Shown piece by piece: positions 4,547 to 12,850 of a stretch of 64,000 bases of DNA. Position numbers and translations under genes: made by a program. The stretch's first letter is position 1. Each line of letters opens with the position of its first letter. The notes beneath the pieces were generated by a model, which was given only the letters and a program-made list of their open reading frames with translations, made no database searches and had not been told where the DNA came from. Source of the DNA: Streptococcus sp. SN-1 (lineage in GTDB: Bacteria > Bacillota > Bacilli > Lactobacillales > Streptococcaceae). The stretch lies in assembly GCF_041154385.1 (NCBI RefSeq), contig NZ_AP028929.1:310001-374000 (forward strand), read 5' to 3'.

Positions 4547-4939
4547 ATGTCACAAGCACAATATGCAGGTACTGGACGTCGTAAAAACGCTGTTGCACGC
4601 GTTCGCCTTGTTCCAGGAACTGGTAAAATCACTGTTAACAAAAAAGATGTTGAAGAGTACATCCCACACGCTGACCTTCGTCTTGTAATCAACCAACCAT
4701 TCGCAGTTACTTCAACTGCAGGTTCATACGACGTTTTCGTTAACGTTGTAGGTGGTGGATACGCTGGTCAATCAGGAGCTATCCGTCACGGTATCGCTCG
4801 TGCCCTTCTTCAAGTAGACCCAGACTTCCGCGATTCATTGAAACGCGCAGGACTTCTTACACGTGACTCACGTAAAGTTGAACGTAAGAAACCAGGTCTT
4901 AAGAAAGCTCGTAAAGCATCACAATTCTCAAAACGTTAA
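4547..4939 (+). CDS. rpsI: 30S ribosomal protein S9
   Basis: Component of the small subunit, 130 residues, complete. The family blocks [17 protein letters not shown] at the start, [19 protein letters not shown] in the middle, and the basic C-terminal tail ending SQFSKR (which reaches the P site) are all present. The 3' end of this gene is the attachment site of the island that follows: the 38 bases at 4889-4926 recur at 12353-12390. The gene is intact because integration into the last codons regenerates the C terminus. Confidence 0.98.
4889..4926 (+). repeat. Left attachment core (attL) in rpsI 3' end
   Basis: 38 bases identical to 12353-12390, lying in codons for the RpsI C terminus. The repeat bounds an island of about 7.4 kb. 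rpsI is an established integration target for streptococcal ICE/IME tyrosine integrases, which use conserved gene 3' ends. Confidence 0.85.
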
Positions 4940-4965
4940 TCAATACGATTATATCAACGTTTCAA

Positions 4966-5001
4966 AGCACTCAAGAGTTTATCTCATGGGTGCTTTTTTT
5001 A
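4966..5001 (+). terminator. Terminator of rplM-rpsI
   Basis: A 12-bp imperfect stem (AGCACTCAAGAG against CTCATGGGTGCT) with a TTTAT loop, followed by seven T residues. Confidence 0.85.
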
Positions 5002-5044
5002 TGTTTTTTGAAAAGTTTACCTCAAAGTTCACCTTATTTTCACC

Positions 5045-6155: not shown

Positions 6156-6343
6156 AAAGGTACGAAGTTTAGTGTAGTTTTGGCAATCAGTTCTCTGGTT
6201 GTCAGACGCACTTTTTATTTAGTTTTCAAAGATCGTGATTTAGCCTTGAAGATAAGGTTATTATTTTCAATTGTTATACAACCATTAGTTGTTAATGTCA
6301 ACGGTTTTCTGCAAAAATTTAAAATATTTTTTTGAGGTCACAT

Positions 6344-6682
6344 ATGGAATTCGTAGAACGCTTGAAAACATTAAGGAAACAAGTACAACTAACACAGGCT
6401 CAAATAGCTGAAAAACTAGATATTTCCCAACAAGCATATGCTTCATGGGAACGTGGAACAAAAAAACCGATACAAGAAAATCTTGTTAAGATTGCACAAG
6501 TTTTAAATGTGTCCGTTGATTATTTAGTTGGAAACTCAGAAGAAAAATCAGATGAATTAGATAATATTGAATTGCTATTCCGAATGAATTCAAAAGGGCT
6601 TACTGACGAAGAAAAAGAAATTTTCAAGAAGGAATTGATTGAGTTTATGGAAGAAAGGAAGAAAGCTTTTGATAGTGAATAA
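6344..6682 (+). CDS. Xre/Cro-CI family transcriptional regulator
   Basis: A 112-residue protein with an N-terminal helix-turn-helix: LTQAQIAEKLDISQQAYASW at about residues 17-36, then the typical PIQENLVKIAQVLNVSVDYL segment. The C-terminal 45 residues are charged and probably helical, for dimerisation. I chose ATG 6344, which has GAGG six bases upstream; an in-frame TTG at 6332 lies before that site. It precedes the ATPase/DUF4435 pair by about 195 bases on the same strand. Its job may be to repress the island promoters, including its own; this is inference from position. Confidence 0.85.
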   Translation: MEFVERLKTLRKQVQLTQAQIAEKLDISQQAYASWERGTKKPIQENLVKIAQVLNVSVDYLVGNSEEKSDELDNIELLFRMNSKGLTDEEKEIFKKELIEFMEERKKAFDSE

Positions 6683-6877: not shown

Positions 6878-8347
6878 ATGAAAATAACAAGATTTACAAT
6901 CAAAGCATTGCACGGTTTTTTTGATTATGATGTAAATTTAAATGAGGATATAACTTTTCTTTTTGGTGAGAACGGAAGTGGAAAAACAACGGTTTTGAGT
7001 ATGTTAGACCATGTTATTTCAGGGGAATTGTATAAACTATTTGATTATGAGTTTAAAAATATAACAGTTTTCTTCAAGGAGAACGATATGACTCACTCAG
7101 AAGCACAGGATAAAAATAGAGTGGAGGTTCGTTTAAAAAAAAGTAGATGGCAGCAAGTTAAACAATTAATTGTTAAGTTTAAAGAAAAAGATGGGACCAT
7201 CAAATATGATAGAGATTATGCCAGAGAAATTGATTTTTTTGAGAGTTCATTTGACATAAGACAGAGATTTTTTGATTCTTTTAAGTTAGCAGAAGAAATA
7301 AAAGATTGTTTTAATTATTTATTTTTACCACTCAACAGACTAAATTATAAAATTAAAGACCTTGATAATATGGATTTTAGAATGATTAGAAATAAAGCAA
7401 TGCATAATCCAAATTATGTTTTTAATAACAGTGAGAGTATGCATTCTGTTGAGCAATTAGTAGGCGAATCGGTTTCTCAGATTAATAGTAGTATAAATAA
7501 ACTGAATACAAAGATGCGACAAGACATTTTAAAATCAGCTCTAGAAATGAGTAGAGACGATGTTGATTTGAATGAATTTTTTAAATATTTTGCAAAAGAT
7601 GATTTGATTTCAGAATTAGAAGATACTAAGAAGAGATATATTAAGCTTCTTGAGGATTTAAAAACAATAACAACATTAGATCAAAAAGAAGAGTATGATA
7701 AATATTTCAATGATTTAATTAATCAAGTACAAAAAAGTGTAAATGCCAGTGAGAAAAATGGGGTTAGGAGGCAGTTGCCAGCTCAATTAATTGGTACTTA
7801 TGTAGAGTTAATTAGAATTAAAAAACTTATAAAGATTTATGAGAATATTGAAGATAATATTTTAGAATTAAAGACTCCGATTAATGATTTTTTGAAATAT
7901 ACAAATATATTTTTAAAAGATGGAAAAGATGAGAAAGAAATTATAGTTAATTCATTAGGTGAGGTTTTCTTTATAACGAACTATACCAAGGAACCTGTTA
8001 GATTAAAGTATCTTTCATCTGGTGAAAAACATATAGTAACCTTGATTTCTAATTTAATATTTAAGGTCGATAGATCTAAGTTTACAATTTTTATCATTGA
8101 TGAGCCTGAGTTATCATTACATCTAAGTTGGCAAAAAAAGATTGTTGAAACAATTCATGAAATAAATAAAAATATGCAATTAGTTTTTGCGACTCACTCG
8201 CCAGAAATTATTGGTAAATACTCATCAAAAGCATTTGAACTAGAAAAACATTATAAGCCTGTTGAGAAATTGGTAGAGAAGATAGATGGTATGGAGGGAC
8301 TAGATGATTTAGATAACTTCCTTAATGAATTAGAGAGTAATTTGTAA
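6878..8347 (+). CDS. AAA_15/OLD-type ATPase, AriA-like (PARIS) defence protein
   Basis: A 489-residue ABC/SMC-like ATPase. Walker A is GENGSGKTT at residues 30-38; an LSSGEKHIV signature lies near residue 378; Walker B is FIIDEPELSLH near residue 407; the switch histidine is in FATHSPEII near residue 440. The central ~300 residues are helical and charged, as in RecF/OLD-like proteins with a coiled-coil insertion. GAGAGGA precedes the ATG. Fifteen bases separate it from a DUF4435/TOPRIM-like gene. An AAA_15 ATPase followed by a DUF4435 protein is the composition of the PARIS anti-phage system (AriA-AriB), which senses phage anti-restriction proteins. Related ATPase-TOPRIM pairs (OLD, Gabija-like) are the alternative. 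Confidence 0.75.
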   Translation: MKITRFTIKALHGFFDYDVNLNEDITFLFGENGSGKTTVLSMLDHVISGELYKLFDYEFKNITVFFKENDMTHSEAQDKNRVEVRLKKSRWQQVKQLIVKFKEKDGTIKYDRDYAREIDFFESSFDIRQRFFDSFKLAEEIKDCFNYLFLPLNRLNYKIKDLDNMDFRMIRNKAMHNPNYVFNNSESMHSVEQLVGESVSQINSSINKLNTKMRQDILKSALEMSRDDVDLNEFFKYFAKDDLISELEDTKKRYIKLLEDLKTITTLDQKEEYDKYFNDLINQVQKSVNASEKNGVRRQLPAQLIGTYVELIRIKKLIKIYENIEDNILELKTPINDFLKYTNIFLKDGKDEKEIIVNSLGEVFFITNYTKEPVRLKYLSSGEKHIVTLISNLIFKVDRSKFTIFIIDEPELSLHLSWQKKIVETIHEINKNMQLVFATHSPEIIGKYSSKAFELEKHYKPVEKLVEKIDGMEGLDDLDNFLNELESNL

Positions 8348-8362
8348 CTTCAGGAGAGTATA

Positions 8363-9346
8363 ATGGGTGGTGGATTATCATATAGTGATGCGGGGCTTCG
8401 TAATAGAAGTATTTTTTACAGACAAGATATAAATATATATGTCGAAGATACTGGCAAAGAATATGTTTATGAAGAGATATTTAAAAGATTACTAAAAAAT
8501 GATTACAGAATTGAAACAATACTTCCTTTGGGAGGAAAAACCAATGTATTAAAAGAATATATAATAAAGGGTGAATTTGATAATCGAGGAACGCCCAATA
8601 TATTTTTAGTAGATGGTGATTTTGATAGGTATATTAGCTATGATGTTGTTGGAAAAGGTGACTTTCCTGAGGAGACAGAAGCTAATTTAGAAGAGTTTGT
8701 AAGTAATAAAATTATCAATTCAGATTCAGTTATCTACTTGGAAACATATAATATTGAGAGTTATTATGTAGATGAGAATGCTTCAAAAAAATTTATTAAA
8801 GGTATGCTTCGTAAAACTGATATGGAGTTGTCTGTAATTCTGAATTTTGAATGTTGGAAAAATAGAATTGTATCTGAGTCTAAGGATTTATTTCTCTTAT
8901 ATTGCTTTTTAATTAAATATAGAAATTTATATGGTTCCAAATACAATGGGGCTACCTCTAGATTATCAATTTCCACTGTAGATCGACCGCCATTTTTATT
9001 TTTAGATTCAAAAACTGGATTTAAAAATGACTCAAACGAGTATGATGAATTAAAAAGAGAAGTTCTTGGTGGACTCAGTGTGGAAAATCCGGGACTTGAT
9101 CTTGATGAAGAACTGGAAAAAATAAAAAATGATTATGAAAATATAAATGGCAATGACTACTACAATCTAATTTGTGGGAAATTCCTTCTGACGAGTCTCC
9201 ACAAGTATCTGAAAAATATTTGTGGAAAAGATATTAAATTTCCACAACTTGAATGGAATCTAATTTGTGATTTTGATATTAATAAATTGAATTTCCTAAA
9301 AGAGAGGATTGACAGAATAATGATTAATCATTCGGCTAGTGAATAA
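8363..9346 (+). CDS. DUF4435 TOPRIM-like protein, AriB-like (PARIS) effector
   Basis: A 327-residue protein with the features of a TOPRIM fold in DUF4435 proteins: the acidic residue in INIYVEDTGKEYVYEEIF (E28), and the DxD motif in FLVDGDFDRY (D84, D86). The middle (VIYLETYNIESYYVDENA, about residues 130-147) matches the conserved NIE.Y segment of DUF4435. It starts 15 bases after the ATPase gene with AGGAGAG upstream of ATG, and ends in a strong terminator, so the two form one operon. In PARIS, AriB is held by AriA and, when released, acts as a nuclease that stops growth. The assignment is by motif and neighbourhood, not by alignment. Confidence 0.72.
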   Translation: MGGGLSYSDAGLRNRSIFYRQDINIYVEDTGKEYVYEEIFKRLLKNDYRIETILPLGGKTNVLKEYIIKGEFDNRGTPNIFLVDGDFDRYISYDVVGKGDFPEETEANLEEFVSNKIINSDSVIYLETYNIESYYVDENASKKFIKGMLRKTDMELSVILNFECWKNRIVSESKDLFLLYCFLIKYRNLYGSKYNGATSRLSISTVDRPPFLFLDSKTGFKNDSNEYDELKREVLGGLSVENPGLDLDEELEKIKNDYENINGNDYYNLICGKFLLTSLHKYLKNICGKDIKFPQLEWNLICDFDINKLNFLKERIDRIMINHSASE

Positions 9347-9531: not shown

Positions 9532-9717
9532 ATGCCACAACCTATTGTTCCTGTAGAGCTTAGACAATCTCGTTGTTTTGATTCTAAAAAGAGAAATGAT
9601 ATTCTGCTTAAAATTCGTATTGGCAAGCTTGAACTAAGTTTTTTTCAATCTCTCAATCTCGAAATGATAGAATAGCTTTTGGATAAGGTGTTGCTCTATG
9701 ACAATTCATCTATCTAG
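9532..9717 (+). pseudogene. IS66 tnpA remnant with a premature stop
   Basis: From ATG after TTGGAGGATAT, the frame encodes 47 residues (MPQPIVPVELRQSRCF onward) and stops at TAG 9673. The same frame continues after the stop as LLDKVLLYDNSSI, overlapping the tnpB start as tnpA normally does. CAG to TAG is the likely change. The preserved part is short for TnpA, so the middle is probably also deleted. Confidence 0.6.
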
Positions 9718-10048
9718 CCTAGGGCAAGTCTATCTCGTATGTGGGAAAACGGATATGAGGCAAGGCATTGATTCACTGGCTTATCTCGTTAAAACCCATT
9801 TTGAATTGGATCCTTTCTCAGGTCAAGTCTTTCTCTTTTGTGGTGGACGTAAAGACCGCTTTAAAGCCCTTTACTGGGATGGTCAAGGATTTTGGCTACT
9901 TTATAAACGCTTTGAGAATGGTAAACTGACTTGGCCAAGTACAGAAAAGGATGTCAAAGCTCTCACACCTGAACAAGTAGATTGGCTTATGAAGGGCTTT
10001 TCTATAACTCCCCAAATAAATTCATCAGAAAGTCGTGATTTCTATTGA
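9698..10048 (+). CDS. tnpB: IS66 family accessory protein TnpB (IS66 Orf2)
   Basis: 116 residues, full length for the IS66 Orf2-like family. Diagnostic segments are LVCGKTDMRQGIDSLAYLV near the N terminus, GQVFLFCGGRKDRFKALYWD in the middle, and GFWLLYKRFENGKLTWP after it. Required together with TnpC for IS66 transposition; its exact biochemical role is not established. Since tnpC is truncated here, the gene is probably without function. Confidence 0.88.
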   Translation: MTIHLSSLGQVYLVCGKTDMRQGIDSLAYLVKTHFELDPFSGQVFLFCGGRKDRFKALYWDGQGFWLLYKRFENGKLTWPSTEKDVKALTPEQVDWLMKGFSITPQINSSESRDFY

Positions 10049-10689: not shown

Positions 10690-10962
10690 AAAAATTTCCA
10701 GTTTTTAGGTATTTCGTTTAGTTTATAAAAACTAGATAAGGTAAGGGGTTTGATAATCTAAAGGATCTCTCAGAATTTCATTTTTTATCGGATATGGTTA
10801 ATGAAAATTAAAAAATGTAATAATAAACAGAACCCAGAATGATAGTTTTATTATATATCTAATAATATAAAAATCTAGAAAAAGAGAAATTAGATGAAAA
10901 AATACTATAATTGTGATACAATTACTATTAGTAAATTTAAACGAAACTAAGAGGATATATTT
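10690..10962. other. AT-rich leader of the toxin-antitoxin-chaperone operon
   Basis: Very AT-rich. The right part (10860-10940) includes several TATAAT-like hexamers, for example ACTATAAT near 10905, so a promoter is likely, but no single -35/-10 pair stands out. A GAGGA ribosome binding site sits at 10951. Confidence 0.35.
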
Positions 10963-11529
10963 GTGAAAAATGTAATTTCTTTGTATCATACTAATTTTGA
11001 ATCATCCATTAGTTCATTTAAAGAAACAAAAGAATTAAAAGTAAGTAGCCATGCCGACGATAAGGAATGGGGTGGAACTGGGATGTACTTCTGGGACAAC
11101 ACTGGAAATGCAAAATATTGGTATGATCAGAAGAAAAAAAAAAGCACAGCTTCACCAATAGAAATTACAAAATGTCATGTTGAGTTTGATGTTGATAATG
11201 ATATTTTAGATTTAACAAATTATTACATCGAGGAGCTGTTTCAAAAAACTCTTAATTTATTACCAAAGAAAAAAAAATTAAAATTATCTACTGCCCCTAT
11301 TGGAGATAAGATTGACTTTTATTGTGAGTATTTTGATATAAAAATAGTAAAATTTTTTGGGAAGTATTGTAATACTCCTAAGACTAGCTTATTTGATTCA
11401 GACGATACAAATCAAAAAATTACTAATCAGGTAAAAGTTATTTATTGTCTCAAAGAGTCGGGGATAAATATTATAAAAGGTGATATAGAGGTAGTTAGTA
11501 TAGAAGAGGTGTATAGATGTCGTTATTAG
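10963..11529 (+). CDS. ADP-ribosyltransferase-like toxin, CmdT-like
   Basis: 188 residues, GTG start with GAGGA seven bases upstream. The N terminus reads ISLYHTNFESSISSF and, after a short gap, WGGTGMYFWDNTGNAKYW. This is the YH.t ... G.GmYFw ... A..W arrangement of ADP-ribosyltransferase folds (candidate H9 and Y42), with a candidate acidic residue near the C terminus in VSIEEVYR. It overlaps a small gene by 13 bases, which is followed by a SecB-like chaperone gene. Toxin, antitoxin and SecB-like chaperone in this order match CmdTAC, whose toxin ADP-ribosylates mRNA upon phage infection. The fold assignment is by motif reading; sequence identity to known CmdT is unknown. Confidence 0.62.
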   Translation: MKNVISLYHTNFESSISSFKETKELKVSSHADDKEWGGTGMYFWDNTGNAKYWYDQKKKKSTASPIEITKCHVEFDVDNDILDLTNYYIEELFQKTLNLLPKKKKLKLSTAPIGDKIDFYCEYFDIKIVKFFGKYCNTPKTSLFDSDDTNQKITNQVKVIYCLKESGINIIKGDIEVVSIEEVYRCRY

Positions 11530-11810
11530 AAAGAATGAATGAGTTTATTGCTAAATTAGAATCTGATGATCAAGAATTTCTGAAAGATCTTGATTCACAA
11601 TTTCAAAAGTATTGTGAAGAAAAAGAGAAAAAGAATACGGTAATTCCTGGTATCAGTATACAGATGTCAACGATGGCGAAAAAGAATAATTTACCATCGA
11701 AAAGTAAATGTCTGGATAGAACCCTCATTAGAGAAAAAAGATACGGTAAAAATTATAAAAGTATTTCTATTAAATCTTTAAGTAGCTACGATTATAATGG
11801 TGCAGCGTAA
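11517..11810 (+). CDS. Putative antitoxin of a toxin-antitoxin-chaperone operon, CmdA-like
   Basis: 97 residues overlapping the toxin gene by 13 bases, which implies coupled expression. The N-terminal half is acidic and helical (MNEFIAKLESDDQEFLKDL). The C-terminal half is basic with hydrophobic alternation (YKSISIKSLSSYDYNG), and could be the chaperone-addiction segment that SecB-like proteins bind in TAC systems. I do not recognise a named family; the call comes from size, overlap and the neighbours. An AGAGGTG ribosome binding site lies inside the toxin gene. Confidence 0.5.
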   Translation: MSLLERMNEFIAKLESDDQEFLKDLDSQFQKYCEEKEKKNTVIPGISIQMSTMAKKNNLPSKSKCLDRTLIREKRYGKNYKSISIKSLSSYDYNGAA

Positions 11811-11819
11811 GGAGAGAAA

Positions 11820-12203
11820 ATGGAACCAACAATTTCTTTAGAAAAGTATGAGATTGAAGAAATCACCTATTCACGAATAGTCGACGAGTCAGATTTTCAA
11901 TCAGAAAATTTGCAAGTTTCAGTTAAGTCAGGCTTAACTGAAGATAAAAAATTTGGTAAAGTTACATTGGAAGCTAAATTTTTTGACGATGAAAAAAATA
12001 AAAAAGTTTCAGCTAGAATCAGTGGTTATTATACAATCAATGTAGAAGAAGATAGTGAAAAATATATTGCCATTAATGGAACTGCAATATTGTTTCCTTA
12101 TTTGCGGAGTGCAATATCAATGATTTCAACTCTAGATAGTCAGGATGCTGTTTTAATTCCCACAATAAATGTTTTATCAATACTTGAAAATCAAGAAGAG
12201 TGA
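11820..12203 (+). CDS. SecB-like chaperone, CmdC-like
   Basis: 127 residues, close to the length of SecB-like proteins. The C-terminal half has the SecB hallmark: NGTAILFPYLRSAIS (residues 86-100) and, after the variable loop, AVLIPTINVLSIL. The beta-rich N-terminal part fits the SecB fold. Streptococci do not use SecB for secretion, so a SecB-like gene directly behind a toxin-antitoxin pair indicates a TAC chaperone that stabilises the antitoxin. It starts 9 bases after the antitoxin stop with AAGGAGAG upstream and is the last gene before the right attachment repeat. Confidence 0.72.
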   Translation: MEPTISLEKYEIEEITYSRIVDESDFQSENLQVSVKSGLTEDKKFGKVTLEAKFFDDEKNKKVSARISGYYTINVEEDSEKYIAINGTAILFPYLRSAISMISTLDSQDAVLIPTINVLSILENQEE

Positions 12204-12352: not shown

Positions 12353-12403
12353 AAACCAGGTCTTAAGAAAGCTCGTAAAGCATCACAATTTAGTAAACGT
12401 TAA
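12353..12403 (+). repeat. Right attachment site: duplicated rpsI 3' end
   Basis: The first 38 bases are identical to 4889-4926. The frame encodes [16 protein letters not shown] and a stop, the exact RpsI C terminus, but the last codons differ synonymously (TTTAGTAAACGT against TTCTCAAAACGT). This looks like the 3' end of another rpsI allele left after site-specific integration. Confidence 0.85.
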
Positions 12404-12429
12404 TTCGAAAGAATTACTATACTTACAAA

Positions 12430-12454
12430 GAGCACCTTTAGGGGTGTTCTTTTT
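12430..12454 (+). terminator. Terminator behind the duplicated rpsI end
   Basis: GAGCACC paired with GGTGTTC, six-base loop, then five T residues. It sits where an rpsI terminator would be and differs from the one at 4966. Confidence 0.8.
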
Positions 12455-12545
12455 GTACTTTCTTACTAAATTGGTGCAATTGACACAGTTGTTGCGACTT
12501 TAGTCGCTTGCAAATGTGGCTGCAACCGGACAAGTCAGTTGTCTT

Positions 12546-12594
12546 AAAACGTTAATCAATACTATACTATCAACGTTTCAAATCACTCGAAAGT
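12546..12594 (+). repeat. Third rpsI-end remnant
   Basis: AAAACGTTAATCAATAC, then TATCAACGTTTCAAA and CACTC, closely matching the sequence spanning the rpsI stop and its downstream flank at 4930-4973. It suggests an earlier or stacked integration at the same site, about 140 bases beyond the right att repeat. Confidence 0.65.
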
Positions 12595-12599
12595 TTACC

Positions 12600-12850
12600 T
12601 TATTGTTTCTTTTTATATTCTTAAGAAATCAAAAGCAACATAAGTCGTCAACTCTTTATTATAAAAACATTAATTAGCATTCTAGTATTATCTTCAGTCT
12701 AAAATCAGTATTTTGAGTTGTACGAAATCAGTTTTTGAATTTTGTCTTGTCTTACTTCATTTTCCCCTGAAGTTAAGTTTTTACTCAGAATCATTAGTTA
12801 AAAAGGAAAAAGAACTAGTTTTATATTTGGATTTGAAGTTTATAAAATTT
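12600..12850. other. Intergenic stretch with no recognised gene
   Basis: AT-rich sequence between the third rpsI remnant and the promoter of the Fic-like module. No ORF with a ribosome binding site and no clear repeat was seen. Confidence 0.5.

Follow-up and report, generated by a model that had tools for sequence, protein, structure and literature searches.

A probable diverged CmdTAC-type toxin-antitoxin-chaperone operon on an rpsI-anchored island of Streptococcus sp. SN-1

The window analysed here is a stretch of 64,000 nucleotides of Streptococcus sp. SN-1 (contig NZ_AP028929.1, positions 310,001 to 374,000). At positions 10963-12203 it holds three tightly linked genes, which a sequence-only reading had taken for an operon of the anti-phage system CmdTAC, consisting of an ADP-ribosyltransferase (ART) toxin, a small antitoxin and a SecB-like chaperone. 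We refer to these genes and their proteins as T, A and C, respectively (Table 1). The gene coordinates, sizes, 13-base overlap and motifs quoted in that reading were all reproduced: the T protein carries ISLYHTNFE and GGTGMYFWDN, and the C protein carries NGTAILFPYLRSAIS and VLIPTINV. Read by eye, the Shine-Dalgarno-like sequences AGAGGA, AGAGGTG and AAGGAGAG are found upstream of the starts of T, A and C, respectively. We consider the promoter-like site upstream of T to be weak, as the region holds six such sites compared to a mean of 11.8 in its shuffles.

Table 1. Features of the operon and of the surrounding island (window positions).
Feature	Position	Strand	Details
Left end repeat of island (rpsI 3' end)	4889..4940	+	52-nt direct repeat with 12353-12404, 92% identity
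Helix-turn-helix (HTH) regulator	6332-6682		upstream of AriA/AriB, same rpsI-anchored interval
PARIS-like pair	6878..9346	+	AriA-like AAA ATPase 6878-8347, AriB-like DUF4435 protein 8363-9346, same island
IS66 TnpB-like open reading frame (ORF)	9698-10048		between the two defence loci; short ORF follows, to 10284
Promoter-like site, extended -10	10894..10922	+	about 40 bases upstream of the T GTG; consensus scan, 9/12 matches
CmdT-like ART toxin gene T	10963..11529	+	188 amino acids, GTG start
CmdA-like antitoxin gene A	11517..11810	+	97 amino acids, ATG start, 13-base overlap with T
CmdC/SecB-like chaperone gene C	11820..12203	+	127 amino acids, ATG start
Right end repeat of island (copy of rpsI 3' end)	12353..12404	+	pairs with 4889-4940
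Terminator-like hairpin	12427..12452	+	downstream of operon; 1 found, mean 0.4 in shuffles
Additional imperfect copy of rpsI end with its downstream DNA	12542..12618	+	83% to 4926-5002

The identity of T was assessed with profiles built without the window sequence and run against the 534 ORFs of the window. T was the best of these against the toxin profile (E 3.9e-12; next ORF 0.24), and still scored 7.7e-8 (next ORF 0.012) when its nearest relative was also removed from the profile. Its closest family model is CmdT, represented by PADLOC PD-T4-9_A at 3.8e-6 (an E-value alone, PADLOC's own thresholds not being shown). Both matches place T in the CmdT family and bear out the ART-type toxin proposed by the sequence-only reading. 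The family is a diverse one, and T shares 17-29% identity with the other seven toxins of our first alignment. When the window and L. gasseri toxins were compared to the satellite phage toxins using hhalign, 91 N-terminal columns were aligned (96.8%, E 2.3e-10), and the third position of the catalytic triad lies outside these. A match of T to Glyoxalase_2 (0.02) was set aside as weak.

C was likewise the best of the 534 ORFs against the chaperone profile built without it (E 5.4e-33; next ORF 1.8), so that a SecB-like chaperone lies within two genes of the toxin, as in CmdTAC. An ordinary SecB export chaperone could be ruled out, since C shares an operon with T and A and fits PADLOC PD-T4-9_C far better than SecB models. 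The statement that streptococci have no SecB pathway held in part. The SecB model PF02556 detects C alone among the host genes, and that below its cut-off, but the host also encodes a DUF1149 protein (G000:C1:588313-588684) that matches S. pneumoniae SP1558 (2hng) at 1.8e-78. As the solved DUF1149 homologues 2hng and 2o2a (gbs1413) have a SecB-like fold, with no recorded function, the host has, besides C, a further protein of the SecB fold. We also observed two other SecB-type toxin-antitoxin-chaperone (TAC)-like operons in Lactobacillales (L027 and L034), in which the upstream two-gene pairs have a second protein ending GVIA or SLAV.

Counting the window, the order T-A-C is seen in 48 loci whose toxins are not identical (some are near-duplicates); T is broken or truncated in six of the 48. 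This recurrence, along with the profile ranks, rules out chance ORFs. The relatives occur in six further genomes of the genus, in the satellite phages Javan245, Javan248 and Javan16, in an L. sakei prophage, on plasmids of E. faecalis, E. faecium and L. gasseri, on a gut phage contig and in other Bacillota genomes. The locus with the nearest chaperone (L. sakei prophage) is not the one with the nearest toxin (L. gasseri). In Javan245 the CmdT gene (L014 2099-2629) is unannotated, and the antitoxin and chaperone genes that follow are recorded as hypothetical proteins. Across 37 loci the pairwise distances of the three proteins are correlated with one another (r 0.47-0.54, p 0.0002 each), a pattern expected of genes that move and evolve as a unit.

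Searching with the toxin, we found matches in 17 of 398 Bacillota genomes (the window's included), 16 of them with C in the same locus, although several of these 16 toxins are broken or truncated. The corresponding search of Lactobacillales, a draw that overlaps the first in at least the window's genome, gave 14 matches in 12 of 290 genomes, 12 of the 14 with C. The profile was built from TAC-type toxins, and solo relatives may be under-counted. The exceptions lacking C are another ART (L151, E 2.3e-5), two chaperone-free loci (L156 and L164) and loci on plasmids of Priestia megaterium and Rhizobium. Thus, homologues that are mostly found apart, which would have spoken against the CmdTAC reading, are not what the toxin side displays. 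The linkage is looser from the chaperone side, where T was present in 17 of the 30 Bacillota loci examined, out of 42 places. Of 16 loci on genome contigs, eight have a toxin by profile, and among the other eight several are cut by contig ends or have split genes; chaperone matches lacking T represent other TACs, fragments or unclear loci. A first-pass search of the genus matched 9 of 247 genomes at E ≤ 0.01, and in six of the nine no toxin was detected by profile. Among viral toxin loci six of nine have a chaperone, and in the other three the contig stops within ∼420 bases of the toxin. Scans of viral contigs with single toxins gave no relative, the window toxin had no tblastn match in phages, and the island DNA had no near match in phages; the set A1 was too diverse for contig scans.

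The 42 N-terminal residues of A are acidic, while its C-terminus is basic and Ser-rich and ends in a degron-like NGAA. A small protein with such an end, encoded between toxin and chaperone, is also what CmdTAC has. Matches of A to KMP11 (0.008) and to the PADLOC model 'beta' (0.027) were set aside as weak, and blastp against L. gasseri CmdA within a small local set was weak as well (E 0.067). For the relatives, A was picked by position as the longest ORF of at least 60 amino acids ending near the chaperone start. Defined in this way, 37 of the 48 A proteins end in Ala (25 AA, 12 VA), compared to one of the 48 T and none of the 48 C proteins. In the subset below 90% toxin identity the count is 29 of 37, the eight exceptions ending VV, AS, AV, SL, AG, ML, SV and VG. 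CmdA of E. coli is described as ending LAA and accumulating in cells without ClpP, with CmdC promoting its accumulation (PMC11618068). The host of the window encodes a ClpX-type protein, ClpP and a transfer-messenger RNA (tmRNA) with the tag AKNNTSYALAA.

Another genome of the genus, G111, has one complete T-A-C locus (L165) and two extra CmdT loci, L166 (4413-4622) and L167 (5149-5618), for which the 5-7 kb of downstream sequence examined holds no chaperone. L167 has two tandem antitoxin copies. The three 69-residue antitoxins of these loci resemble satellite CmdA over its first 45-63 residues (best E 2.5e-12, 7.0e-9 and 3.5e-9 in the local set), and the remainder is absent; they end EEEA, EMEE and EEGD. 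Such an apparent loss of the tail together with the chaperone fits the prediction of the TAC chaperone-addiction model as outlined in PMC5105189. Among the plasmid loci mentioned above, a CmdT-like toxin of Priestia megaterium has a 93-residue partner ending SANN, and those of Rhizobium are accompanied by an HTH protein and a ∼60-residue partner, with no SecB beside the toxin in either case.

The active site was compared among the 42 toxins that were not flagged as broken, window included. H9, G38, G40 and Y42 (window numbering) are invariant in all 42; H9 and Y42 had been rightly singled out from the window sequence alone. The third triad column, read by eye, has 25 Q, 9 E, 3 Y, 3 I (the window and two L. 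gasseri toxins), 1 V and one unreadable residue in a toxin with a disturbed frame. With the C-terminus anchored on the L. gasseri relative (KVIYCL/KTIYVV), the window residue is I160. A second alignment positions this C-terminus differently, and we therefore regard I160 as probable rather than settled; neither alignment gives E, D or Q. The catalytic triad of CmdT has been given as HY-[E,D,Q] (PMC11618068). In human mono-ADP-ribosyltransferases the third residue after H and Y is typically I, L or Y, and substrate-assisted catalysis has been described for PARP10 (PMC9189837), and PARP10, 11, 14 and 15 are reported to modify single-stranded RNA in vitro (PMC11618068). Three CmdT relatives (L011 1948-2556, L012 2038-2694 and L022) carry a long insert that separates the H motif from the Y motif, and probably have Tyr at the third position.

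The probable Ile in place of E/D/Q, in a C-terminal third that is modelled with low confidence, could indicate a decayed operon, whose toxin lost catalysis with its third residue and was retained as a relic or decoy. We find this highly improbable: all three frames are open and preceded by start and ribosome-binding signals, the invariant H, G, G and Y are retained, the probable Ile is common to the L. gasseri plasmid group, and active mono-transferases are on record with H-Y-I and H-Y-Y triads, PARP10 and PARP16 among them (PMC9189837). Alternatively, the operon could be controlled as in CmdTAC and poison the cell in another way. ParT, Tpt1-like, NatT and MbcT enzymes act on protein, tRNA or the pool of nicotinamide adenine dinucleotide (NAD+), and in a fold comparison with T the rows for ParT, NatT, MbcT and Tpt1 have about the same Z as those for diphtheria-type enzymes. 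The low identity to the other aligned toxins and the probable departure of the third residue from E/D/Q also leave room for a protein, tRNA or NAD+ target. Tied Z scores exclude no ART subfamily and say nothing on the target, however, and CmdT is the closest family model, with the H-Y signature, the gene order and the chaperone all matching CmdTAC. We therefore consider a different target unlikely.

Several observations weigh against a CmdTAC-type operon. Kinship to E. coli CmdTAC is recognised through family models. Foldseek with the T model gave no match at E ≤ 0.001. The model itself is poor, with a predicted local distance difference test (pLDDT) score of 56.8 that falls below 50 at residues 132-175, where the third triad residue lies. 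A sequence search of the PDB was also weak, giving 12 sequences at E ≤ 1, of which the top one (0.33) is an unrelated protein and nine are PARP10 or PARP15 (E 0.42-0.93). With what is probably Ile at the third position, the toxin could be altered or dead. A matches no model at E ≤ 0.001 in four family libraries, 11 of the 48 antitoxins lack the C-terminal Ala, and one of the three chaperone-free antitoxins nonetheless ends in Ala. C is SecB-like in general, other TACs (L027, L034) use similar chaperones, and of 20 Lactobacillales genomes (out of 295) matched by the chaperone, two of them weakly, only 14 have T.

Taken together, the sequence-only reading is upheld at its core, and we estimate at roughly three in four the probability that the three genes form a diverged CmdTAC-type operon working as outlined below. 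Our evidence consists of the three genes, their homology and conserved order, the ART and SecB signatures, the Ala tail, and the ClpX, ClpP and ...ALAA tmRNA tag of the host. Complex formation, a capsid trigger, ClpXP degradation, an mRNA target and phage defence are carried over from the E. coli system. By this analogy, CmdT would be kept inactive in complex with CmdA until, upon infection, a newly made phage protein pulls CmdC away. CmdA would then be destroyed by ClpXP, and the freed CmdT would move ADP-ribose from NAD+ to, most likely, single-stranded mRNA, so that translation halts and the infection aborts.

A broader scheme suggested by the alignments is possible, although we hold it to be doubtful. 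The CmdT family might be split into the catalytic classes H-Y-Q, H-Y-E and H-Y-hydrophobic, with the streptococcal and L. gasseri toxins as H-Y-I enzymes that would perform substrate-assisted, PARP10-like RNA chemistry with a preference other than GA, the dinucleotide that CmdT of CmdTAC ADP-ribosylates in single-stranded RNA. The antitoxin tail and SecB would constitute a detachable sensor module, dropped by some streptococcal toxins to give chaperone-free CmdTA pairs that sense phage otherwise.

The operon lies on an island at rpsI, as the sequence-only reading had proposed, enclosed by two repeats of the rpsI end. The extra repeat to the right may point to more than one insertion event. The imperfect rpsI-end repeats fall into two families, which may stem from successive insertions. 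In 21 of the 41 genomes searched, the window's included, the rpsI query matched more than once, and the site therefore appears to be a hotspot for insertion. IMESag-rpsI has been published as an integrative element located at rpsI in S. agalactiae (PMC5090054). The island also carries a PARIS-like pair composed, as in PARIS, of an AriA ATPase and an AriB protein of the DUF4435/Toprim type (PADLOC AriA 7.6e-29, AriB 2.4e-19; Pfam AAA_15 8.6e-19, DUF4435 2.3e-18). As AriB of PARIS is reported to cleave tRNAs (PMC12409363), there may be two systems on the island that act by stopping translation.

This setting raises the question of whether the operon is an addiction module that stabilises the island, with an anti-phage role that is nil or incidental. 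The island is flanked by repeats, no integrase was seen among the scanned ORFs between them (small ORFs were outside that scan), and relatives are found on plasmids. Relatives are also found, however, between the lysis genes and the integrase of the L. sakei prophage and of a phage-like plasmid, and near the end of the three Javan satellites, and the PARIS-like defence pair is on the same island. Pure addiction thus appears very unlikely.

The suggestion that a Gram-positive form would widen the known range did not hold, since CmdTAC in Gram-positives is already in print, the name PD-T4-9 having been used for the B. cereus group and S. aureus. For streptococci, no published treatment was found by title or abstract opening, with supplements outside the search, and Extended Data Fig. 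1 of the CmdTAC paper may list Streptococcus. What would surprise a specialist, judged from the sequences, are the chaperone-free pairs and the apparent H-Y-I triad. With an active site that appears PARP10-like, such a diverged Gram-positive copy would allow the role of the third residue in RNA ADP-ribosylation to be tested. Relatives lacking both chaperone and antitoxin tail would allow testing of whether the pair of SecB and antitoxin tail is a replaceable phage-sensing part. In addition, streptococcal satellite phages are seen to be carriers of a CmdTAC-type system.

Among known systems, the TACs with other toxins (HigBA-SecB of M. tuberculosis, MqsRAC and HicAB-SecB) have a SecB-like chaperone that is described as protecting an antitoxin with a C-terminal chaperone-addiction extension (PMC5105189, PMC9519451). 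Their toxins are unrelated to CmdT, and TAC toxins have been described as several endoribonuclease families (PMC11618068). The human PARP10/PARP15-type mono-ADP-ribosyltransferases have an H-Y-I/L triad like the probable one of T, an analogy confined to the active site; the PDB sequence matches are weak. CmdTAC (PD-T4-9) of E. coli ECOR22 has, as described, the same order of ART toxin, small variable antitoxin and SecB-like chaperone (PMC9519451, PMC11618068). The catalytic H and Y are common to both and both antitoxins end in Ala-Ala (LAA in E. coli, GAA in the window); the third triad residue, probably Ile rather than E/D/Q, and the streptococcal host set the window operon apart. T-even phages do not infect streptococci, and its trigger must therefore come from another phage. 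The CmdTAC relatives on mobile elements of Lactobacillales (Javan245, Javan248 and Javan16, the L. sakei prophage TMW 1.1386 P1, and the E. faecalis, E. faecium and L. gasseri plasmids) have the T-A-C order and the chaperone of the window. Unlike the window toxin, those of the satellites have Q at the third position, and the L. gasseri plasmid toxins are the nearest to T in sequence and share its probable Ile.
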